From: Pedobacter lusitanus
Lineage (GTDB): Bacteria > Bacteroidota > Bacteroidia > Sphingobacteriales > Sphingobacteriaceae
DNA length: 64,000 nt
Direction: 5' to 3'
NCBI RefSeq assembly: GCF_040026395.1
Contig: NZ_CP157278.1
Coordinates: forward strand, 1,860,001-1,924,000
Positions 35,843 to 47,791 of this stretch are shown in pieces. Every line of letters starts with the position of its first letter. The stretch's first letter is position 1. A model generated the notes under the pieces. That model was not told where the DNA came from. It did no database searches and saw only the letters and a program-made list of their open reading frames with translations. A program made the position numbers and the translations under genes.

Positions 35843-36127
35843 ATGGCACTTCAGGGTACACAGCACCTGGGTTTACCATACTGGTTTCATGTAGAAGCAG
35901 GTATTGGCTCTTTCATCGGCGGTCTGATTCTGATCATCCCCAAATTACCATCACGTCTAAAAGAGTGGGCTTATGTAGCATTGGGTATTACCTACATTTC
36001 TGCCTTAATTGCCCATCTCTATGTTGATGGAGTTGTTCCGATGTCCTTTATGCCAATTGTAGTTTTTGCTGTACTGCTAATTTCTTATCTGTGTTATCAT
36101 AAACTCTTAAAATACGCGAATCCTTAA
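35843..36127 (+). pseudogene. DoxX-like membrane protein, N-terminally truncated
   Basis: The 94-residue frame has three hydrophobic segments and matches the last two thirds of DoxX-like proteins of ~130 residues (TQHLGLPYWFHVEAGIG; LPSRLKEWAYVALGITYISALIAHL; the final LLISYLCYHKLLKYA). The first transmembrane helix and its preceding basic N-terminus, about 35-40 residues, are absent. The upstream 35706-35842 DNA does not encode them in any frame I can see. It may be a pseudogene or a shortened functional protein. Its 3' end overlaps the convergent PorP gene by 21 bp. Confidence 0.6.
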
Positions 36128-37000
36128 ACTCAGTTCAAAATTACCATCAACATAACCTTTTAAGGCTGCAGTGCCTGAAGTATAAGAAGCATTCAGATTC
36201 AATGCCTGGTACTGCAGTCCCATACCCACAGTAAAACTTTGCGTAGAATGATACAGACCGAATACATTGACTTTTTTATTGGCAAAAACAAGATTTGCAC
36301 CTGCGTCAAATATATCACTGTATCCTTTCACACCTCTTAAAGCCACTTTTGGCTCCACATCTACACCATCTTCTCCTTTACTCAGTTCCAGTCTGTAGCT
36401 GGCTGCCCCGTAGAATGTGGCCTGATCAACCCCATTATTCAAATCTGTTTTGTGAAATACGCTTTTCAGATTGGGTAACGCTCCCTGTATAGTTAATCTG
36501 TCAGCCGTGTAAGCAGCACCAAAATCTCCGTCAACATAAGTTGACCGCTGGTTATACTGACTGATCCCAGGATCATTCGGATCTCCGTTAACCAGATTTT
36601 CATTCAGTCTTTCATTTGAAAAACCAAACGACACCCCAAAATGTAACTGGTGTCCGTTGTCATTCAGTGGCAAATGATAAGCGTAGGTTCCTACAACTCT
36701 GGTCCAGCGTTGTAAGCCTATTTTATCATTGCTGACATTAATCCCTAATCCGACTCTTTTGGTAACCCCATAATTACCGGTTACCGATTGGGTAACAGGC
36801 GCTCCGGGCGCACCATTCCATTGCGCCCGGTAAGCCAGGTTAAATTCAAGTCCCTGATCAATTCCTACCATTGCAGGATTACCCAGATATTGGTTCTGAT
36901 AATACATTGCTGACAATGGATTCAACTGGGCGGATGATTGTTTTGAAGTCAATAAAAACAGCCCCGTTATTAATCCCCATATTGCTAGATTCCTTTTCAT
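36107..37000 (-). CDS. PorP/SprF-family type IX secretion-associated outer membrane protein
   Basis: The 297-residue protein has a signal peptide (about 1-25, ending SSA before QLNPLSAMYYQNQYLGNPA, the typical PorP/SprF start). The remainder has amphipathic beta-strand alternation consistent with a small outer membrane barrel. SprF-like proteins are found next to the giant surface protein they help secrete or anchor. Here the gene is 11 bp downstream of the 2263-residue protein gene, so the pairing is very likely. It is the last gene of the six-gene operon. Confidence 0.93.
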   Translation of the reverse strand: MKRNLAIWGLITGLFLLTSKQSSAQLNPLSAMYYQNQYLGNPAMVGIDQGLEFNLAYRAQWNGAPGAPVTQSVTGNYGVTKRVGLGINVSNDKIGLQRWTRVVGTYAYHLPLNDNGHQLHFGVSFGFSNERLNENLVNGDPNDPGISQYNQRSTYVDGDFGAAYTADRLTIQGALPNLKSVFHKTDLNNGVDQATFYGAASYRLELSKGEDGVDVEPKVALRGVKGYSDIFDAGANLVFANKKVNVFGLYHSTQSFTVGMGLQYQALNLNASYTSGTAALKGYVDGNFELSLRIRVF

Positions 37001-37011
37001 AATTTTAATTA

Positions 37012-40000
37012 TTATTTGTTTCTTACCAGCGTAATAAAGCCTTTGATCTTGCTTCTGCCATTACCAAAATCCAATACGTAGAAATAAGTACCTTCACTCA
37101 ATGGATTACCGCTTATTGTTCCATCCCAACTGTTATCGTATGATTTTTTACTGTAAATCAATCTTCCGGCGCGGTCAAATATTTTCACCTCATTATTCGG
37201 ATACATATCAATATTCCGGATAACAAAAAGATCATTTATTCCATCACCGTTAGGTGTTAAAATATTGGTCGCATCAATAGTTTTGTAATCCTCATCGACA
37301 CTAATAGTAATCTGCTGACTACTGCTGCAGCCAGTTGCATTAACAGCAGTGACAGTATAAGTTGCAGTCTGAGCCGGTCTGATGGTTAGTACAGCAGTAT
37401 TCTGACCACTGATTATACCTGATGCATTTGCCCAGACATAAGTACTTCCACCACTTGCCGTAAGTTTTGTCGTTATACCTTTCGAGATTTCTGTTCCTGC
37501 CGAAGAAACAATACTGATCACCGGAAGCGGATTAATCGTCATCACAATGGTTCTGCTATAAGTATCAGCTCCGCCGTTTGCAGTTCCACCGTTATCTTTT
37601 ACAGTAACAGTGACATTTACTGTTCCCGAAACACCACTGTTAGCCAAACGGTAAGTAAGTGTACCGTTTCCACCTGTTTCCTGGCTTACTTTCAGGTCGC
37701 TGAACATCGCTGGTTTATCTGAACTGACAGTTAGCACAGTAGTTTGAGCAGGCTCAGGTCCCGGACTAATTCCTGTCAGTGCAATAGTTTGTTTAGCCGT
37801 CGTATTACATTGGGTAACACCCGCTATTGAATTCAAAGTAGGTACTTCGTTAACATCAATCAGTGTAATATTAAACTGTTTGTCTAAGGTTAAACCATAT
37901 TGAGTAGTACTTCTTACCCTGATACTGTAATTTGATTTTTGCACAAAACTCAGACTTGTTTTAGTTTTCACCTGATCGCCTGTGATACTGAATAAAGAGT
38001 TATCCGTATCTCCGCTGCCACCAACCAGCGTATAAGTGAAAGTAGCATTCGGATCTAAAGAGGTACTGCTTAATGTTCCGGCCAATGCTCCTGCAGGTCT
38101 GTTTTCAAATAAAGGTACTGCCGCAAGACTAATACTTGTCGGTACCCCTGGTTTTACTGTAAGTACGCCGTTGACAAAAGTGACAGCATAGTTTGCCGCA
38201 GCTGTCGCACTCACTGTCACCGGATAATTACCAGCCAGCGAACTGCTGCTTGCAGTAGTACTTATAGTAGTGGCAGTAGTAAACACATTTGTAGTTTCTC
38301 CATTTACAAATCCGTTATAGGTTACTGTTAAAGGAGGTACAGCAGTTCCTTGTATCATCTCCTTATTATCGGCTGTAACTGTTAAAACCTGTGGAGTAAT
38401 GACCCCGTTAGAACTGCTCAGATTTGTTACTGCCAGTACATAGTTCCCTGCATCAGCCCCTGTTAAGATGATTCCGCTAACGGTCACGAGTTTACCGGTT
38501 GCCACATTTTTATTATCGTATGTTCCGTTGACCGGATTATTCAATGCGACATCTTCAGCAGCTACATTCCCTGTAAAGCTATAGTTAGCAGCTGTTAAAG
38601 CTGCAGTAGTATTGCCATCATAAACTTTGGTAATCGTACCTGCCAGCACAGGTGTAATGGTTCTGGCTGTGATTGTACCAGGTGCTGTCAGACTTGTAGC
38701 AGACAAAGTATAATTGGCTGCATCTGCTCCGGTAAGTGTAATGCCGCTCACAGCTACAGTTCTGTTACCCACATCTTTACTACTATAAACACCGGTTACC
38801 GGATTATTCAGATTGACAATCTCCGATCCTACTTTACCTGTAAAACTATAGTTAGCAGCAGTCAGCGTAGCTATAGTATTACCATTATAAACTTTGGTAA
38901 TTGTTCCTGCAAGCATAGGAATAATAGTTGCCGTAGTAATAGTACCCGGAGCTGATAAACTGGTTGTAGAAAGCACATAATTGGCTGCATCAGTACCTGT
39001 CAGTGCAACTCCTGTCACACTCACTGTACGGCTGCCAATATTTTTATTGCTGTATGCACCCGTAAGCGGATTATTCAGATCTACATTGTCAGCACCTATC
39101 TTTCCTGTAAAACTATAATTTGCAGCAGACAGTTCAGCTGTGGTATTACCATCGTAAACTTTAGTGATTGTACCAGCCAGGACAGGAACAATTGTCGCAG
39201 AGGTAATTGTACCCGGAGCTGTTAAGCTGGTTACTGAAAGTGTGTAGTTAGCCGCATTGGTTCCCGTTAATGTTATTCCATTAACCGTTACAGTTCTGCT
39301 TCCTGCATTTTTCACATCATATGTTCCTGACGAAGGATTATTTAAGCCCACATTATCAGCACCTATATTTCCTGTAAAACTGTAATTTGCAGCAGTCAGT
39401 GCAGCTGCGGTATTACCATCGTAAACTTTGGTAATCGTACCGGCCAGAACAGGGATGATAGTAGCTGATGTGATCGTACCTGGCGCTGTTAAGCTGGTCG
39501 TAGAAAGCACATAGTTAGCCGCATCAGTACCTGTCAGACTCACTCCGCTCACACTCACTGTTCTGTTGCCTGCATCTTTAAGATCATAACTTCCGGTTGC
39601 CGGATTATTCAGCGCTACATTATCCGTACCTACATTACCTGTAAAGCTATAATTGGCACCAGTTAAAGTGGCGGTTGTATTACCATCATAAACTTTGGTA
39701 ATCGTGCCTGCAAGAGCAGGTATCAGGGTTGCCGTAGTGATTGTACCCGGCGCTGTTAAGCTGGTAGTTGAAAGCGCATAATTAGCTGCATCAGTTCCCG
39801 TCAGAGCGACTCCGCTGACACTCACTGTTCTGTTACCAGCAACTTTCAGATCATAAGTACCCGCTGCAGGGTTATTGATAGCTACATCGTCTGCCCCTAT
39901 ATTTCCTGTGAAACTGTAATTCGCAGCAGTTAACGCTGCAATAGTATTACCGTCATAAACTTTAGTAATTGTTCCGGCAAGCACAGGTGTAATGGCGGCG

Positions 40001-43000
40001 GCTGTGATCGTACCCGGTGCTGTCAGACTGGTTGCCGAAAGCGTATAATTACCTGCATTAGTTCCGGTTAGTGCAATACCACTAACCGACACAGTTCTGC
40101 TTCCCGCGTTTTTCAGATCATATGTTCCTGACGAAGGATTATTTAGGGCTACGATATCTGCACCTATATTTCCAGTAAAACTGTAATTCGCAGCAGTTAA
40201 AGCTGCAGCAGTATTACCATCATAAACTTTGGTTATAGTTCCGGCAAGGACAGGTGTAATTGTAGCTGACGTGATCGTACCCGGTGCGGTTATACTGGTT
40301 GTAATAAGCGTATAATTACCCGCATCAGTTCCGGTTAGTGTGAGCCCGCTTACAGTTACCGTTCTGTTACCTGCATCTTTCAGGTTATAACTTCCGGTGG
40401 GAGGATTATTTAAGGCTACATCATCTGCACCTATCCGGCCTGCAAGATTATAATTAGCAGCAGTTAGTGTGGCTATTGTATTACCGTCATAAACTTTAGT
40501 GATTGTTCCAACAAGAGAAGGAATGACAATTGCGCTGGTAATTACTCCCGGTGCAGTTAAACTGGTTGTAGAAAGTGTATAGTTTGCAGCATCGGTTCCG
40601 GTTAAAGCGATTCCGCTAACACTTACCAAACGGTTTCCTACATCTTTAAGTGCATAATTTCCGCTGGCAGGATTATTTAAAGCTACGTTTTCGGTTCCTA
40701 TTTTACCAGTGAAACTGTAATTACTGCCTGTTAATGTTGCACCAATATTTCCATCATAAATTTTAGTAATTGTTCCTGCAAGTGCCGGAACAATAGTCGC
40801 TGTAGTAATAGTGCCCGGAGCTGTTAAGCTGGTTGTGGAAAGGGTGTAGTTTGCCGCATCAGTTCCTGTTAAGGTCAGACCTGTGACAGTTACCGTCCTG
40901 CTACCTACATCTTTCAGGCTGTAACTTCCGGCGGCAGGGTTATTCAATGCCACATTTTCTGTGCCTATCTTACCCGTAAAACTATAGTTAGCCCCAGTTA
41001 TTGCTGCAGCTGTATTTCCATCGTAAACCTTGGTAATCGTTCCGGCAAGTGTCGGAACTATAGTCGCTGAGGTAATTGTACCCGGAGCTGTTAAACTGAT
41101 TGCCGAAAGCGTGTAGTTACCTGCATCAGTTCCGGTTAAGGCCAAACCACTTACAGTTACCGTTCTGTTACCTATATCTTTCAGGCTATAACTACCCGCC
41201 AAAGGATTATTTAAAGCTACATTCTCTGTACCTACTTTACCTGTAAAACTATAGTTAGCCCCAGTTAATGCTGCTGTTGTATTCCCATCATAAACTTTGG
41301 TAATCGTTCCGGCAAGTGTCGGAACAATAATCACAGAGGTGATTGTACCCGGAGCTGTTAAACTGATTGCCGAAAGCGTGTAGTTACCTGCATCAGTTCC
41401 GGTTAAGGCCAAACCACTTACAGTTACCGTTCTGCTACCTATATCTTTCAGGCTATAACTACCCACCAAAGGATTATTTAAAGCTACATTCTCTGTACCT
41501 ACCTTACCTGTAAAACTATAATTTGCAGCAGTCAGTGCGGCAGTCGTATTACCATCATAGACTTTGGTAATCGTTCCGGCAAGTGTCGGAACAATAATCA
41601 CAGAGGTGATTGTACCCGGAGCTGTTAAGCTGGTTGTGGAAAGGGTATAGTTCGCCGCATCAGTTCCTGTTAAGGTCAGACCTGTGACAGTTACCGTCCT
41701 GCCACCTACATCTTTCAGGTTGTAACTTCCGGCGGCGGGATTGTTCAATGCCACATTTTCTGTGCCTATCTTACCTGTAAAACTATAGTTAGCCCCAGTT
41801 AATGCAGCAGCTGTATTCCCATCATAGACCTTGGTAATCGTTCCGGCAAGTGTCGGAACTATAGTCGCTGAGGTAATTGTGCCCGGAGCTGTTACGCTGG
41901 TTGTAGAAAGGGTATAATTTCCGGCATCAGTTCCGGTTAAGGTCAGACCAGTTACTGTTACTGTACGGTTGCCAATATCTTTAAGCGCATAAGTTCCGCT
42001 GGCAGGGTTATTTAAAGCTACGTTCTCTGTACCTACTTTACCTGTAAAACTATAGTTTGCTCCTGTTAATGCTGCAGTTGTATTCCCATCGTAAACCTTG
42101 GTAATTGTTCCGGCAAGTGTCGGAACAATAGTCGCGGTAGTAATAGTACCGGTAACTACAACAGGATTCAGGGTATAAGAAGCACTTGAAGCACCCGTTA
42201 AAGCCAAACCTGTAATCGTAATTGGTTTAGCACTTCCAACAGCTGCAGTATTATAAGCAGCCGAAGTATAAGTCACGCTGACTACATCCGGAGCTACCAC
42301 CCCACTTGCTGCGTTAAGCGGATCAAAAACCACATTGGCTACCACATCACCATTATAGGCTTTGGTAACCGCGGCAAACGTTGCTGTCAGGGCTTTCGGA
42401 GCAATTATCAATGTAAAGTTTTGCGAACCTGAACTTACGCATGCCCCGGTAACATTAACACTAAAATTATAAGTACCTGTCGCTGTTGGAGTTCCTGATA
42501 TAACCCCACTTCCAGATAGTGACAAACCAGGAGGCAGTGTTCCGGGAGTCACCAATGTATAAACAAATGGCGCACCCCCACCCGAAGCTACAGTGACTGG
42601 CTGGCTATAAGCAGTTTTGTAGGTTCCCGCAGCCAGTGTCGGGCTTAAATTGATAACCTGGCTGGATAATGTTAATAATGCATTGTTTGAGCTGACTGAA
42701 CCAGCAGCACCGGTGGCATTGAGCCTGTAACGGTTATTATTTAGGCCAGTAACATTTGAAATGGTTAATGTAGCACTGGTAGAACCGGAATAGACAGCGT
42801 TATCAGTGATATCTGCAAAAGATCCGCCTCCGTCTGTACTTAACTGCCATTTTAAAGCACAAAAATTAATAGCAGTAGCCGTGAAAGTGGTTCCGCTCCC
42901 GGCACATTGATTCAATTTATCTGCTGGCTGAACAGAAAACGATGCCCCTAATACAATAAATGTTTCGCCTGTAAGAAAAGGTGAATAATGATTTCCATTA

Positions 43001-43803
43001 TCATCCACTTCCCAGTTCAGTCTTGTGTTAACAGTATTTAAAATTGTACTTGCTGCTCCTGCGGTAACACCACCGGCCGTTTTTTTGTAACGACCTGTAT
43101 ATCCGGTATTGAAAGCCGGATCACCAGGATCTCCGTGGGAGATAACAGACATATTCTGTGCACCAGCCGACAGTACAGCTGGTAACATCGAACGATCAGC
43201 AGCAAAAGTCAATGGTGTTAAAGCAGCATCCCATCCACTGGTACCACTTCCATTATCATGATTCATACTGATACCGGCAAGAAGCGTGGGTACTCCCACA
43301 CTGCCTGTAAAAGCAAAAATCTGATCACCGGAGAATATTCCCAGACTCATATACTGATGGTCCGGACCAGGCGGATTTGCTCTGGTCGCTACCGTTTCTA
43401 CTACTCCGGTAACCGTACCTGCCGGTGCATTCAGTTTGTCAAATGCCTTCAGCTGATACTTACAGAAAACATAAATCTCGGTACCTGCCGGATAGATTTT
43501 ATCTGAAGTCCACTTGATAACACCATCAGTTGTCGCCTGGATATCTGCCTGAAAAGCATTGGCGGAAGTCCAGCCAAAATCTGTAAAATAGATATCTGTA
43601 CCTGCGGGTATTTCACGCAATAACAAAAATGAGAACTGATCATCCAGACCAGCCGGCGTGCCTCCGTCCTGAAGATCATAGCCAGTAATGACTACATCTC
43701 CTTTTCCGAGCGTGCATTGTGCTGAGGCATTAAAATTAATGCCAGTAAGGAGGATAAAAGACAGGATTATGCCTTTGATCAACCTTTGAATAAAGATTTC
43801 CAT
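37012..43803 (-). CDS. Giant YDG-repeat surface protein with CHU_C-type C-terminal sorting domain
   Basis: The 2263-residue protein has a signal peptide to about residue 28 (ASA before QC). An N-terminal domain (about 28-290; ITGYDLQDGGTPAG) is followed by an Ig-like region (290-385), a putative-Ig He_PIG domain (385-470; GTLPPGLSLSGSGVISG), and a divergent YDG domain (470-552). Fourteen YDG units follow at exactly 89 residues each (552-1803), then an MBG domain (to about 1885), a cadherin-like domain (1886-1990), further Ig/PKD-like modules (to about 2175) and the gliding-motility C-terminal domain (2180-2263; ILTPNGDGINDLFV). The last domain directs type IX secretion and surface attachment. 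It is a probable adhesin or stalk protein. Its partner PorP/SprF is 11 bp downstream. Confidence 0.93.
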   Translation of the reverse strand: MEIFIQRLIKGIILSFILLTGINFNASAQCTLGKGDVVITGYDLQDGGTPAGLDDQFSFLLLREIPAGTDIYFTDFGWTSANAFQADIQATTDGVIKWTSDKIYPAGTEIYVFCKYQLKAFDKLNAPAGTVTGVVETVATRANPPGPDHQYMSLGIFSGDQIFAFTGSVGVPTLLAGISMNHDNGSGTSGWDAALTPLTFAADRSMLPAVLSAGAQNMSVISHGDPGDPAFNTGYTGRYKKTAGGVTAGAASTILNTVNTRLNWEVDDNGNHYSPFLTGETFIVLGASFSVQPADKLNQCAGSGTTFTATAINFCALKWQLSTDGGGSFADITDNAVYSGSTSATLTISNVTGLNNNRYRLNATGAAGSVSSNNALLTLSSQVINLSPTLAAGTYKTAYSQPVTVASGGGAPFVYTLVTPGTLPPGLSLSGSGVISGTPTATGTYNFSVNVTGACVSSGSQNFTLIIAPKALTATFAAVTKAYNGDVVANVVFDPLNAASGVVAPDVVSVTYTSAAYNTAAVGSAKPITITGLALTGASSASYTLNPVVVTGTITTATIVPTLAGTITKVYDGNTTAALTGANYSFTGKVGTENVALNNPASGTYALKDIGNRTVTVTGLTLTGTDAGNYTLSTTSVTAPGTITSATIVPTLAGTITKVYDGNTAAALTGANYSFTGKIGTENVALNNPAAGSYNLKDVGGRTVTVTGLTLTGTDAANYTLSTTSLTAPGTITSVIIVPTLAGTITKVYDGNTTAALTAANYSFTGKVGTENVALNNPLVGSYSLKDIGSRTVTVSGLALTGTDAGNYTLSAISLTAPGTITSVIIVPTLAGTITKVYDGNTTAALTGANYSFTGKVGTENVALNNPLAGSYSLKDIGNRTVTVSGLALTGTDAGNYTLSAISLTAPGTITSATIVPTLAGTITKVYDGNTAAAITGANYSFTGKIGTENVALNNPAAGSYSLKDVGSRTVTVTGLTLTGTDAANYTLSTTSLTAPGTITTATIVPALAGTITKIYDGNIGATLTGSNYSFTGKIGTENVALNNPASGNYALKDVGNRLVSVSGIALTGTDAANYTLSTTSLTAPGVITSAIVIPSLVGTITKVYDGNTIATLTAANYNLAGRIGADDVALNNPPTGSYNLKDAGNRTVTVSGLTLTGTDAGNYTLITTSITAPGTITSATITPVLAGTITKVYDGNTAAALTAANYSFTGNIGADIVALNNPSSGTYDLKNAGSRTVSVSGIALTGTNAGNYTLSATSLTAPGTITAAAITPVLAGTITKVYDGNTIAALTAANYSFTGNIGADDVAINNPAAGTYDLKVAGNRTVSVSGVALTGTDAANYALSTTSLTAPGTITTATLIPALAGTITKVYDGNTTATLTGANYSFTGNVGTDNVALNNPATGSYDLKDAGNRTVSVSGVSLTGTDAANYVLSTTSLTAPGTITSATIIPVLAGTITKVYDGNTAAALTAANYSFTGNIGADNVGLNNPSSGTYDVKNAGSRTVTVNGITLTGTNAANYTLSVTSLTAPGTITSATIVPVLAGTITKVYDGNTTAELSAANYSFTGKIGADNVDLNNPLTGAYSNKNIGSRTVSVTGVALTGTDAANYVLSTTSLSAPGTITTATIIPMLAGTITKVYNGNTIATLTAANYSFTGKVGSEIVNLNNPVTGVYSSKDVGNRTVAVSGITLTGADAANYTLSATSLTAPGTITARTITPVLAGTITKVYDGNTTAALTAANYSFTGNVAAEDVALNNPVNGTYDNKNVATGKLVTVSGIILTGADAGNYVLAVTNLSSSNGVITPQVLTVTADNKEMIQGTAVPPLTVTYNGFVNGETTNVFTTATTISTTASSSSLAGNYPVTVSATAAANYAVTFVNGVLTVKPGVPTSISLAAVPLFENRPAGALAGTLSSTSLDPNATFTYTLVGGSGDTDNSLFSITGDQVKTKTSLSFVQKSNYSIRVRSTTQYGLTLDKQFNITLIDVNEVPTLNSIAGVTQCNTTAKQTIALTGISPGPEPAQTTVLTVSSDKPAMFSDLKVSQETGGNGTLTYRLANSGVSGTVNVTVTVKDNGGTANGGADTYSRTIVMTINPLPVISIVSSAGTEISKGITTKLTASGGSTYVWANASGIISGQNTAVLTIRPAQTATYTVTAVNATGCSSSQQITISVDEDYKTIDATNILTPNGDGINDLFVIRNIDMYPNNEVKIFDRAGRLIYSKKSYDNSWDGTISGNPLSEGTYFYVLDFGNGRSKIKGFITLVRNK
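38395..42150 (-). repeat. Fourteen tandem 267-bp YDG units inside the giant surface protein
   Basis: The conserved codons for TKVYDGNT recur at exactly 267-bp steps from about 42092 down to 38621 (13 steps, 14 copies), with no indel between copies. The unit consensus runs PTLAGTITKVYDGNT, then NYSFTG, NVALNNP, SRTVTVSGLTLTG, NYTLS, TAPGTIT. N-terminal copies 1-6 share GTENVALNNP; copies 7-12 mostly have GAD-type. Copies 3 and 4 are nearly identical at DNA level, pointing to recent duplication. Confidence 0.93.
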
Positions 43804-43851
43804 GGTATGATGGATTAATGAGCGTTAATATATTTAGGTCTTTATAGTATT

Positions 43852-45000
43852 CTAAGAGCACATATATGTATTAATCCATCCTGACACGTATCCCTGAGGC
43901 GGATCATTACATATTTCATCCCACTCCTGCAGAACCTCATTCAGAGATACTGTGTCCTGTACGATCACGTGATTTCCTGCGTCAAGTTTTACCTGGTACG
44001 CCGGAGAAAACACCTGATGTGTTTTATTATCTATATATAGGGTTCCTTTAGCTCCGCCGATATCAGCATCCATCATTTCATTCAGGATCTGTTTTGTGCT
44101 GAACTGAGCATGTTCTAAAGCAATCATTATATATTTAAGTATTAATGCACCTGTATCCCATCCCAATGCGCCAATGGCATCCGGTATACGGCCAGTCTTA
44201 CTTTTAAAAGTCTCACAAAAAGCGATATTCTCTCCTGAAGTTAACAGGATTGTCCAGGGCACATAAGAGCTTACGGACATTTCTTTATTTATACCATATT
44301 CCGGCAGATGAAGCTCTTCGAGCATTGCCGGATTCACAAAAATATTTAAAGGTGTTACCGGAATTTCTACAGCAAGTTTTTCATAAAATACCGGGCTCAG
44401 ATCACTATAAATTGCCAGGATATGGCGAACATCAGTATTTGAGTTCAAAAAACCGGTTAGCGGTTCCATGTCAAACTCCTCAGCTTTGAATTTACTGACA
44501 AAATTAAACTCCACTGAACTCCCGCTATCTGCATAACCCTTACTCATAGCATGACACAAACTATAACCGCCATCATAATAGGAAGTGGCAAAAGCAGCTT
44601 TACGGCTTACTTTAGCCGCCTGTTTTCCAATAAGCCTGCAATGCAGTGCATAATTAAGTGTATGATAAATTACAAAAGGCTGTTTGTGAACCGGAGGATA
44701 TTTAGCCCCGCTATTGACTATAATCAATATTTTTTTCAGTGCATTGATCAGTGAAAAAAGGCATTCTACTACCGGATGATCCGCAAAGACAATTAACAAA
44801 TCTGCTTTTTTATCCAGCAGCATAATCTCCGCCTCTTTAAGCATCAGGTTTGCGTCTGTACCAAAACCAATACTTGCTGTAAGCAAATCAGGAGATAAAG
44901 GAGCAGCCAGCCCGGCCAGGTTCCCCTTTAATCCAGTCATAAAATTATGAGCGATCAAAGGATAAGTAGTAGAACCGGGAAGCAGAATACCTATAGTCAT
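43852..45000 (-). CDS. Periplasmic-binding-protein-fold (type 1) protein lacking a signal peptide
   Basis: The 382-residue protein has the fold of ABC-transporter leucine/amide-binding proteins: MTIGILLPGSTTYPL, ADLLIVFADHPVVE, FATSYYDGGY and the domain-2 strand AIGALGWDTGALI. It has no N-terminal signal peptide or lipobox, so it should be cytoplasmic unless its start lies elsewhere. No ABC permease or ATPase is present. It is 6 bp downstream of a tail-collar gene and 48 bp upstream of the giant surface-protein gene on the same strand. A role in this operon, for example ligand sensing or chaperoning, is speculative. Confidence 0.75.
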   Translation of the reverse strand: MTIGILLPGSTTYPLIAHNFMTGLKGNLAGLAAPLSPDLLTASIGFGTDANLMLKEAEIMLLDKKADLLIVFADHPVVECLFSLINALKKILIIVNSGAKYPPVHKQPFVIYHTLNYALHCRLIGKQAAKVSRKAAFATSYYDGGYSLCHAMSKGYADSGSSVEFNFVSKFKAEEFDMEPLTGFLNSNTDVRHILAIYSDLSPVFYEKLAVEIPVTPLNIFVNPAMLEELHLPEYGINKEMSVSSYVPWTILLTSGENIAFCETFKSKTGRIPDAIGALGWDTGALILKYIMIALEHAQFSTKQILNEMMDADIGGAKGTLYIDNKTHQVFSPAYQVKLDAGNHVIVQDTVSLNEVLQEWDEICNDPPQGYVSGWINTYMCS

Positions 45001-45006
45001 GTCTTT

Positions 45007-45567
45007 TTAAGTTTGTGATGGAAAAACACCAAATAGAGAAATGATAAAATTGAGTGCAACATAAGGCTGCATATTGTTGTGCGGTTGCGTATTACCTGCA
45101 CTGCTTAATACGATATTGGTATCAAGCGGCATCATACCTGATGCCGTAGGGGTACGGCTGAAATAACGTTTTCCTACAGCAATAGCAATTCCATTATTCA
45201 CAGGGCTGAGCTGATTATCAGGATCATTCGCTCTGACTTTCATATTCAGTTCTCCGGTTACAGTATGCGCGTGCGGAGGCATCTGCGTCGGGAGTACAGT
45301 TACATTTTCTACTCCACCGACCTGGCCAATGATGTAATTCGAGCCGTTCTGCGAATTTTGCCCCATATGAACCGGTACACGGCCACGCAAATCAGGTAAA
45401 GCAAATGTACTCTGACCATCACCACCATAAGTGGTCCCGATTAAATTAAATAAGACCTCATTTTCAGAGATTGGCAATAGGCTGCCATCACAATAGGCCC
45501 AGCCTAATGGAGGAAAATTACCTCCGAATATTGTGATTTCACCTACATAAGGTTGAGATGCTGACAT
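45007..45567 (-). CDS. Tail-collar domain protein (MdpB-like), third copy
   Basis: The 186-residue protein has the phage tail-collar N-terminal module: PYVGEITIFGGNFPPLGWAY, then CDGSLLPISEN, YGGDGQSTFALPDLRGRVP. The C-terminal half has a His-rich MPPHAHTV and ends with the beta-strand ALNFIISLFGVFPS. No signal peptide is visible. The family was named after microcystin-related protein MdpB but functions are unclear; in phages the domain helps fibres attach. It is 11 bp after its neighbour and 6 bp before the binding-protein-fold gene. Confidence 0.9.
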   Translation of the reverse strand: MSASQPYVGEITIFGGNFPPLGWAYCDGSLLPISENEVLFNLIGTTYGGDGQSTFALPDLRGRVPVHMGQNSQNGSNYIIGQVGGVENVTVLPTQMPPHAHTVTGELNMKVRANDPDNQLSPVNNGIAIAVGKRYFSRTPTASGMMPLDTNIVLSSAGNTQPHNNMQPYVALNFIISLFGVFPSQT

Positions 45568-45578
45568 AGTTTTATGAT

Positions 45579-46139
45579 TTAAGATCTTTGTGGGAACACT
45601 CCCCTTAATGCGATAACAAAATTGACAACCAGGTAGGGCTGCATATTATTATGTGGTAAATTCCCACCTGACACACTTGTCTGAGGATTAAGATTAACCG
45701 CTAAAGGTGCCATATAATCTGTAGCACTGGCTGTATTCGCATAAAGGTTATCCGTATTTGTCGCTGCTGCCGGTAAGCTGGCTACTGCATTTGCCGTATT
45801 TGGCGCGGTACCAGTTTTAAGTCCAGCCCCTAAAGCATGTGTATGCATTGGCATTTCCTGAAACGAAAGTGTTTCATTAGGCGTACCGGAAACTTCGCCT
45901 AAAACACGATCACTCAGTCCGGGTCCCTGGCCTATGCCTATCGGAACAGACCCTTTAAGATTTGGAAGTGCGAAAGTAGATCTTCCATCCCCTCCATAAT
46001 AAGTCCCCAGTAAAGAAAAGAGTGCCGTATTTTGAGATATTGGCATTAATTGTCCATCACAGGTGGCCCAGCCATTCGGTGGAAAATTAAAACCAACCAT
46101 AGCAATTTCACCTACAAAAGGTTGAGTACTTGCTGCCAT
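45579..46139 (-). CDS. Tail-collar domain protein (MdpB-like), second copy
   Basis: This 186-residue paralogue shows FVGEIAMVGFNFPPNGWAT, CDGQLMPISQNTALFSLLG and YYGGDGRSTFALPNLKGSVP. It then has MPMHTHALGAG and an Ala/Thr/Asn-rich variable stretch before the closing VNFVIALRGVFPQRS. The hypervariable mid region is where the three copies differ most, as in fibre-tip proteins that contact different ligands. It is co-oriented with the other collar genes, with 22-bp and 11-bp gaps. Confidence 0.9.
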   Translation of the reverse strand: MAASTQPFVGEIAMVGFNFPPNGWATCDGQLMPISQNTALFSLLGTYYGGDGRSTFALPNLKGSVPIGIGQGPGLSDRVLGEVSGTPNETLSFQEMPMHTHALGAGLKTGTAPNTANAVASLPAAATNTDNLYANTASATDYMAPLAVNLNPQTSVSGGNLPHNNMQPYLVVNFVIALRGVFPQRS

Positions 46140-46161
46140 AATAATAAATTTAATGGTGTAA

Positions 46162-46692
46162 TTAATTTCTTGAAGGAAAAACCCCTGACAGTGCGATACA
46201 AAAATTCAGGGTCAGGAAAGGCATTCTGTTTTCATGCGCTTGTCCTGAACCAACAACCTGCGTATCGAAAGGTGCATTATTGTACATTCCCGTATCGGTC
46301 TGATTGCTGAAGCGACCGGTTAAAGCTGGATTTGCAGCATAGTAATTACCTTCGGGAGTAGTTTGATTTGCAGCTGTCCCTCCGGCTTTTGCTTTAACAT
46401 ATCCCGAGCCCAGTGTATGATTATGCTGTGGCATTTCAGTCATCAGGAGTGTATGAGACTCTTCACCGGATTTTTGTCCCTGGTTAAAGTCATTATCAAT
46501 ATGTACCGGAACCCTGCCCCTGAGGTCAGGTAAAGCAAAAGTGGTTTGCCCGTTACCTCCGTACATCGTACCGAGCAGGGAAAACAGAGCCTGATTTTGA
46601 CCTATAGGTAATAATTGGCCATTACATTGCGCATAGTTTTTAGGTGCATATCCAAAAGAGAATATGATCAGTGTGCCGAGAAATTCATCCAT
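46162..46692 (-). CDS. Tail-collar domain protein (MdpB-like), first copy, head of operon
   Basis: The 176-residue protein starts DEFLGTLIIFSFGYAPKNYAQ and continues CNGQLLPIGQNQALFSLLG, YGGNGQTTFALPDLRGRVP, then MPQHNHTLG and the end LTLNFCIALSGVFPSRN. It is the promoter-proximal member of three tandem copies and of the six-gene block reaching to 36107. Upstream is a 205-bp divergent region shared with the Tat-targeted nucleotidase-fold gene. No phage structural genes are present, so it is not a prophage tail. Confidence 0.9.
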   Translation of the reverse strand: MDEFLGTLIIFSFGYAPKNYAQCNGQLLPIGQNQALFSLLGTMYGGNGQTTFALPDLRGRVPVHIDNDFNQGQKSGEESHTLLMTEMPQHNHTLGSGYVKAKAGGTAANQTTPEGNYYAANPALTGRFSNQTDTGMYNNAPFDTQVVGSGQAHENRMPFLTLNFCIALSGVFPSRN

Positions 46693-46897: not shown

Positions 46898-47791
46898 ATG
46901 TCAAACCGCAGGTCGTTTCTCAAAAACAGTACCCTTGTAGCCGCCGCTACACTCTTTAGTAAACCAATCACCTCTCTTGCTCATATCAGTAAAACTGCTA
47001 CTACTTTGCAGCAGTCAGCTAAGCAGGTAATTATCTATCATAGCAGCCAGCTCAACGGACATTTGCCTGATCAGCAGATGAAACACGGTGGAATAAATAA
47101 CATCAAAAAACTGCTGAACAATCAGGATACAGGAGGATTGATTCTGGATGCAGGGAATTTTCTGGGAAATGGCCGCGATAATGCTCAGCATCATGCAGTC
47201 ATTGTGGCTATGAACGCTGCCGGTTATCATGCCAGTACACCTTCTGTACAGGATCTTAGTCAGGGAGAAGCCTACCTGGCCGCATTAACTAACCAGATGA
47301 ATTTTTGTCTGGTGAACTGTAATTATAGATTTAAAAATCCCAGGTTAGCCGCAGTGGTCAAACCATGGCAAATTATTAATTTTGGTAAATTCAAAATTGG
47401 CGTTACAGGAGTAGGGCCCGAAATTAATGGTATAGGCTATCAGGATCCTGTAAAAAAAGCCAGTGAGATAGCCAAACAGCTCATAAACGAACTGAATTGT
47501 GATCTTGTCATTTGTCTGTCCGGTCTTGATTACCTGCAAAAAAACAATGTGGCTGACAATACCACACTGGCACAGCAATCAGAACTTATTGATTTCATTA
47601 TCAGCGCGAATACTCATCAGAAAAAAACACATACCATGGTTTTAAAAAATGCAACCGGACACGATGTCTTTATTGGTCATTCTCAAGCCAATGGCTTAAA
47701 CATGGGAAAAATGAGTTTTCAGTTTCAGGAGAAACAAAAGTTTTATGCAGAGAACAGCCAGCTGATTAACAGTAATGAATTTGTCGCTTAG
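46898..47791 (+). CDS. Tat-targeted 5'-nucleotidase-fold protein with degenerate metal sites (probable pseudoenzyme)
   Basis: The 297-residue protein starts with a twin-arginine signal (SNRRSFLKNSTLVAAATLF). The rest aligns by eye with the calcineurin-like domain of 5'-nucleotidases, but the metal motifs are changed. The usual TNDxH reads HSSQLNGH (48-55); DAGD reads LDAGN (83-87); GNHxFD reads PSVQDL (115-120); SHLGY reads SGLDY (208-212); GGHTH reads SANTH (236-240). Structural segments such as GGINNIKKLL, NFGKFKIGVTGVG and DLVICL are kept. The fold is probably intact but the two-metal centre is not. It is divergent from the collar/giant-protein operon. Confidence 0.8.
   Translation: MSNRRSFLKNSTLVAAATLFSKPITSLAHISKTATTLQQSAKQVIIYHSSQLNGHLPDQQMKHGGINNIKKLLNNQDTGGLILDAGNFLGNGRDNAQHHAVIVAMNAAGYHASTPSVQDLSQGEAYLAALTNQMNFCLVNCNYRFKNPRLAAVVKPWQIINFGKFKIGVTGVGPEINGIGYQDPVKKASEIAKQLINELNCDLVICLSGLDYLQKNNVADNTTLAQQSELIDFIISANTHQKKTHTMVLKNATGHDVFIGHSQANGLNMGKMSFQFQEKQKFYAENSQLINSNEFVA

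Follow-up and report, generated by a model that had tools for sequence, protein, structure and literature searches.

Collar-domain proteins encoded beside giant repeat proteins: a candidate surface system in Pedobacter lusitanus and other bacteria

Introduction

The closest described relatives of the locus reported here each resemble one part of it. The knob of T4 gp12, the short tail fiber of the phage, carries HxH histidines that we take to bind zinc; AmiC, a cytoplasmic amide receptor, shares its fold with Peripla_BP_6 transport proteins; two-partner secretion pairs a TPS-domain exoprotein with ShlB; and in the type-B cassettes of the type IX secretion system (T9SS), as in SprB-SprF, a giant protein with a CHU_C domain is followed by PorP/SprF. 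We have analyzed a six-gene locus that joins several such parts, at positions 36107-46692 (minus strand) of a 64,000-nucleotide stretch of the Pedobacter lusitanus genome (contig NZ_CP157278.1, positions 1,860,001 to 1,924,000, assembly GCF_040026395.1; hereafter the window). It encodes three Collar-domain proteins, a leaderless binding-protein-fold protein, a giant surface protein and a PorP/SprF protein. Judged from gene neighborhoods, the locus almost certainly belongs to a conserved functional unit tied to the giant protein, and it may well, although we would stop short of calling it probable, exemplify a system, widespread among bacteria, in which a knob of the phage tail-fiber type is coupled to a giant repeat protein.

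The collars belong to a family whose COG name is, we presume, COG4675 ('microcystin-dependent protein'). The rhiABC genes include one collar gene, of unknown function. Rhizobial RhiB, listed as COG4675 in a table passage of PMC6969944 that mentions no giant protein, is the nearest named relative. Natural expression of the family is suggested by a soil metaproteome study that lists COG4675 proteins (PMC5579227, assigned to Pedobacter in two of four table passages). In Candidatus Solibacter usitatus a group of phage tail collar paralogs is reported to show signs of positive selection, in passages that make no mention of neighboring genes (PMC3174227). The first-pass annotation of the window knew of no description of this combination of genes. 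We found none among the titles and abstracts listed in searches of literature mostly from outside subscription journals, which is weak evidence of absence, and neither 'collar' nor 'tail' occurs in a study of type-B proteins and PorP (PMC12618676). The parts are known, and the combination is apparently undescribed: the locus matches neither a prophage nor an ABC transporter, and it matches a type-B cassette for two of its six genes only.

Gene content and organization of the locus

As first annotated, the six genes are co-oriented and tightly spaced; they lie on the minus strand and are separated by 22, 11, 6, 48 and 11 bp. The first three encode collar proteins of 176, 186 and 186 amino acids (aa), at 46162-46692, 45579-46139 and 45007-45567, each with an HxH motif and a match to Pfam Collar PF07484 (E 1.4e-25, 6.6e-27 and 2.9e-27); we refer to their lineages as alpha, gamma and beta, respectively. 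Next come the 382-aa binding-protein-fold protein (43852-45000; Peripla_BP_6, E 1.3e-9), which ends in a conserved C-terminal tail (SGWINTYMCS, 43855-43884), the 2263-aa giant T9SS surface protein (37012-43803), in which Pfam recognizes 15 YDG stretches, MBG_2 and CHU_C, and the 297-aa PorP/SprF outer-membrane partner (36107-37000; PF11751, E 2.9e-48; TIGR03519, 159 bits against a cut-off of 90.55). No terminator-like match falls within the five intergenic gaps. Across the region, terminator-like matches (14, against 9.4 +/- 2.7 in shuffled sequences) and promoter-like matches (34, against 28.4 +/- 5.9) were near chance. Two features escaped the first-pass annotation, a domain conserved at the N-terminus of the giant and a divergent gene at 46898-47791 (+), and both are treated below.

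Conservation in Bacteroidota

Co-occurrence in related genomes, to which the first-pass annotation had looked as a check on its proposal, is strong. A search with the binding protein gave matches in 11 of 59 relatives and 34 loci in a species-level collection; the window, 10 loci from the relatives and 30 of the 34 (L023, L024, L035 and L052 were dropped as repeats) form a set of 41. Collar genes lie near the binding-protein gene in all 41 and immediately upstream of it in 40. The triplet noted in the window is usual, with exactly three collars in 36 loci, but it is not universal, since three loci have one collar only. A surface protein of one of two main families is encoded within the next three genes in 32/41 loci, and a same-strand open reading frame (ORF) of at least 380 aa is found there in 35 of the 38 loci with at least 1.5 kb of downstream sequence (the others being L022, L040 and L055). 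Gene order and spacing are retained in relatives, the order of collar, binding protein and giant being the same in four relatives of the same genus. A 2-kb stretch, L012, holds a binding protein, a formyltransferase-like gene and a protein with a twin-arginine-like (RR) leader; it does not include the collar side and was not counted. One contig of a Niastella metagenome-assembled genome (MAG) carries two sets of collars and surface protein in tandem (L028, 2430-10892).

Relatives of the binding protein are present in 61 of 299 Flavobacterium genomes, from which we examined G386 (F. johnsoniae, assigned through a protein 100% identical to one that carries this species name) together with the 20 weakest matches less one, G338, or 19 in all. 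In all 20 loci, one or more collars lie directly upstream of the binding protein, and an ORF of at least 700 aa is next or next but one downstream, as against 11 of 119 control genes. Here and below, the p-values overstate the strength of the association: control genes belong to the very stretches under test, and loci of one genus are not independent of each other. Of these 20 loci, 15 have one collar, four have two and one has three. The F. johnsoniae set comprises three collars, the binding protein, a formyltransferase-like gene and a 2262-aa protein with a type-A T9SS domain. The link between collars and giant persists among loci whose binding proteins share only 21-26% identity, and across different export routes.

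Occurrence in other phyla

When searched against a plasmid collection, collar 3 matched 72 records at up to 55% identity, and 13 of these were examined. In twelve, a protein of 900 aa or more is encoded close to the collars, the exception being an Azospirillum record (L065); in L066 there is a single collar and the large gene is divergent. A Pfam scan of six of the large proteins recognized an export or anchoring route in three of them: the Comamonas giant is a TPS-domain protein with 24 YDG repeats, encoded beside ShlB, the Paenibacillus protein has Ig domains and three SLH stretches, and the Rhizobium protein combines Ig domains with an autotransporter barrel. Two Deinococcus proteins (L057, L064) gave no Pfam match and the Aminobacter protein only a sub-threshold beta-helix match. 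A seventh, from Pseudoalteromonas, has Ig-like domains, and the remainder are known by their record names alone. The Comamonas giant is a two-partner secretion exoprotein, whereas that of the window uses the T9SS; the collar triplet is the element that the two loci share. Where recognizable, the module that exports or anchors the giant varies by lineage, from type-A T9SS and type-B T9SS with PorP to two-partner secretion, autotransporter and S-layer anchor.

Three Deinococcus loci also hold a binding protein, here with RR leaders. The binding protein matched 12 plasmid records, three of which were examined; the Deinococcus match is collar-linked, and the Thermus and Sulfitobacter matches were set aside as transporter proteins, accompanied by permease genes and lacking annotated collars. 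These gene maps show a cellular collar protein, often as three paralogues, next to a giant protein; many Bacteroidota and some Deinococcus add to this pair a binding-protein-fold protein whose tail is of the W..N.Y type. Annotations for lasso peptide biosynthesis B2 and PqqD adjoin the collar triplets of Azospirillum oryzae (L065) and Deinococcus sp. QL22 (L111).

Collar proteins

All 164 collar rows examined contain an HxH motif, in 149 cases as PxHxH, and in each of the 14 rows aligned, including the three from the window, it falls on residues 445-447 of T4 gp12. Collar 3 of the window also matches the T4 short tail fiber structure 1ocy (E 8e-4). The collars share with this knob the Collar domain, the position of the HxH and a C-terminal LNYII strand; they differ in that they have neither fiber shaft nor phage, are separate chains of ~180 aa, often as three paralogues, and carry an extra C-terminal segment of the G.FPSR type.

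A tree was built from 108 collars of 36 triplets, a subset picked for legibility. Collars 1, 3 and 2 of the window group, respectively, with the first, second and third collars of Deinococcus, Comamonas, Aminobacter and the Bacteroidota loci L075 and L082; the collars of L072 join these three parallel lineages in permuted order, those of Paenibacillus are placed less firmly, and elsewhere in the tree several groups repeat the three-way split. One natural fusion carries three collars, each with PxHxH, in a single 547-aa ORF (L103, 9175-10818), and 759 bp beyond it the same strand encodes a 607-aa protein with a type-A T9SS domain. Because of the parallel triplet lineages and this fusion we infer a trimeric knob: the chains would probably fold as a metal-bound trimer like that of T4 gp12, a heterotrimer where there are three genes and a homotrimer where there is one.

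The binding-protein-fold protein

The signal-less binding-protein fold described at first pass is borne out by structure prediction. In the AlphaFold model (mean pLDDT 91.4) strand 1 starts at residue 2, so that the window protein has no leader, and structure comparison assigns a type-I binding-protein fold with AmiC among the matches. It differs from AmiC and from Peripla_BP_6 transport proteins in its low identity (12% to AmiC, 1qo0) and its W..N.Y-type tail, and its operon has no transporter or AmiR-like gene. The tail follows a W..(x)Y/F pattern in 71 of 72 collar-linked relatives (the sole failure, L100, ends in WQNPLFCV) and in neither of the two transporter proteins; the last two blocks of the model have pLDDT values of 56 and 35. 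In Bacteroidota the binding protein is leaderless.

Compared with the substrate-binding protein of an ABC transporter, the window protein fits in its fold but has neither an export signal nor an ABC gene in its operon. A Pfam scan, made of the six operon genes and not of the relatives one by one, found no ABC permease or ATPase component; likewise, no AmiR-like antiterminator was found among the window genes scanned with Pfam, relatives not having been scanned for one. An annotated methionine ABC operon lies ~0.35 kb after the GNAT gene in D. gobiensis.

The giant protein and its secretion

The giant has an N-terminus that looks leader-like by eye, a YDG array at about 38419-42396 (limits judged by eye from the translation) and a CHU_C type-B sorting domain (37027-37275); it also matches the T9SS type-B sorting domain TIGR04131. 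Ribosomal_S19 matches of Pfam and NCBIfam inside the YDG repeats are probably spurious. We counted nine PorP/SprF matches and 10 of CHU_C in the host genome, where the coordinates place every one of the nine PorP genes beside a CHU_C domain; SprA is also present. Two studies report that PorP-like proteins bind proteins with a type-B C-terminal domain (CTD; PMC9143113) and that T9SS substrates pass the inner membrane via Sec, neighboring type-B substrates being shuttled by their cognate PorP/SprF (PMC12618676). Given the nine adjoining pairs and this published pairing, giant and PorP form an ordinary T9SS type-B cassette. PorP/SprF, which the first-pass annotation had counted as part of the system, thus stands as the usual partner of a type-B CTD but not as a core component, since it occurs in only 4 of the 41 loci. 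Most Bacteroidota giants checked have T9SS tails, and many collar-linked giants of relatives, unlike that of the window, have type-A tails. No SprB match at E <= 0.01 was found in the window giant with Pfam; the relative L019 has two SprB stretches. Elsewhere in the host genome (4445069-4464421), two CHU_C giants (open frames of 4685 and 4744 aa) with PorP partners of identical scores lie ~18 kb apart, which suggests a recent duplication.

The N-terminal domain of the giant (43000-43719) comprises ~240 residues without a Pfam match, is common to 22 proteins of collar loci and is predicted with moderate confidence to be beta-rich (pLDDT 77.6). As a collar-specific marker it proved only partly valid: it was found in 23 of 198 genomes searched, next to collars in seven of the 23, including the five best matches, and elsewhere in the rest. 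Because the CTD of T9SS proteins directs export and anchoring, the N-terminal domain would be distal; contact between it and the knob is speculation.

Proposed function and alternative explanations

We suggest that knob and giant act together outside the cell, the knob as a tip for adhesion or ligand binding. The binding-protein-fold protein would be a partner in assembly or ligand sensing, not a transport protein, and would dock on the knob by its conserved tail; a transferase would modify amines on one of the parts. That the knob is displayed with the giant is plausible, if somewhat doubtful. More tentative still, and on balance doubtful, is the proposal that at least four phyla build an undescribed composite surface appendage, in which a cytoplasmically assembled, metal-centered, heterotrimeric phage-type knob, matured by the binding-protein-fold protein and/or an N-acyltransferase, would be exported and attached to a giant repeat stalk, itself brought to the surface by the secretion system available in each lineage. 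If the coupling of knob and giant is real, many 'tail fiber protein' genes outside prophages, perhaps including that of the rhizosphere protein RhiB, would share a role, and one knob module would have been combined with several export or anchoring routes, which suggests that a viral gripping knob has been turned into part of the bacterial surface machinery. The complete copy in Flavobacterium johnsoniae, a species used to study type IX secretion and gliding, makes the system directly testable.

Several observations weigh against this coupling. Collars, binding protein and giant are putative interaction partners by gene context, and the triplet is dispensable, as the loci with a single collar show. 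In the tree, position labels do not form three clean clades (25 changes, where the minimum possible is 2), several of the key forks lack full support, and in L022, L074 and L081 the three collars of a locus group with one another. A search that started from the collars was fairer and gave a weaker result than that with the binding protein. The Collar domain was found in 47 of 198 genomes of the phylum Bacteroidota, and 40 stretches, clusters first, were taken from 36 of the 47; 38 have a collar ORF (L080 and L093 have none in the map). A binding protein, formyltransferase-like gene or GNAT was present in only 15 of the 38, and of the 32 loci with enough room downstream, 21 had an ORF of 500 aa or more on the same strand that started within 4 kb, compared with 45 of 120 controls (p 0.004). 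The long collar ORFs among these stretches may encode phage proteins. Moreover, neither the collars nor the binding protein of Bacteroidota carry an export signal, and for display they would have to leave the cell by some other route. Hitchhiking through the twin-arginine (Tat) pathway is weakly supported and is kept as a lead: a stricter RR-leader pattern showed no enrichment (12/515 genes near the collars, 12/510 far from them), and a looser pattern, chosen afterwards, gave 16/468 near and 9/557 far (p 0.048). Finally, the window operon has no acyltransferase gene, and seven of the nine plasmid GNAT genes were themselves used to build the GNAT profile, which leaves L067 and L110 as the only independent matches.

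In two further readings, both of which we regard as unlikely, the collars stay inside the cell. The collar trimer and binding protein could remain cytoplasmic as an AmiC-like ligand sensor or regulator that controls production of the giant; the leaderless window collars and Bacteroidota binding proteins and the presence of AmiC among the fold matches are consistent with this, whereas the RR leaders of the three Deinococcus binding proteins and the role of the collar fold in T4, as an external receptor-binding knob, argue against it. With similarly low probability, collars and transferases could constitute a cytoplasmic complex that modifies the giant or its glycan before export, by formylation, acetylation and sometimes sulfation or hydroxylation. 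An N-acylating enzyme is indeed often present, a formyltransferase-like gene in many Bacteroidota (within three genes in 26/41 loci) and a particular GNAT subfamily in other phyla (9/13 plasmid records) and some Bacteroidota, and some loci have genes of the sulfotransferase-like (below cut-off), APS kinase, Asp/Asn hydroxylase and PhyH types. The formyltransferase-like gene is, however, absent from the window operon and from 15/41 loci, a phage receptor-binding knob would be an odd scaffold for modification, and passage via Sec means that T9SS substrates cross the inner membrane, presumably, before folding.

The remaining alternatives concern origin and coincidence. A domesticated or decaying prophage or tailocin beside a surface-protein cassette might be expected from a family best known from phage tails, and the collars do have PHROG tail matches, but such an origin is highly improbable and we rejected it. 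As the first-pass annotation had stated, phage structural genes are missing: none of the 10 flanking proteins matches a structural PHROG category, the PHROG matches being to families of unknown function for several of them and to a transcription-regulation family for one. There is no other Collar domain at E <= 0.001 in the host genome (6.05 Mb, one contig), the best phage match of collar 3 among the matches listed has ~36% identity, compared with up to 55% in plasmid records, and the same non-phage partners recur in other phyla. At the DNA level, collar 1 had no match in E. coli genomes. It is also very unlikely that collar set and giant are bystanders, co-inherited without functional contact. 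Some collar genes do lack a nearby giant (L065 and several collar-selected stretches), but the Flavobacterium comparison with controls, and the persistence of the link across divergent binding proteins and different export routes, speak against mere co-inheritance.

Accessory genes

The gene at 46898-47791 (+) encodes a divergent UshA-like protein with an RR (Tat-like) leader, a possible accessory of the system (NF041198, 63.3 bits against a cut-off of 275). Its family recurs in 8 of the 41 loci, with homologs on the same strand 4 bp (L025) and 50 bp (L020) upstream of a collar. In an alignment, residues of what we take to be the metal-binding motif of the family look replaced in the Pedobacter members, and the protein may be a pseudo-enzyme. 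The collars of L017, L020, L021 and L022 have as neighbors genes for sulfotransferase-like proteins (below the Pfam cut-off), APS kinase, Asp/Asn hydroxylase and PhyH, assigned by Pfam for members in L017 and L020 and by clustering for the rest, as if a sulfation or hydroxylation branch of the collar system existed. In the Niastella loci L026-L029, the surface protein is followed by a family of ~160-aa proteins with RR leaders, whose L026 member has no Pfam or NCBIfam match.

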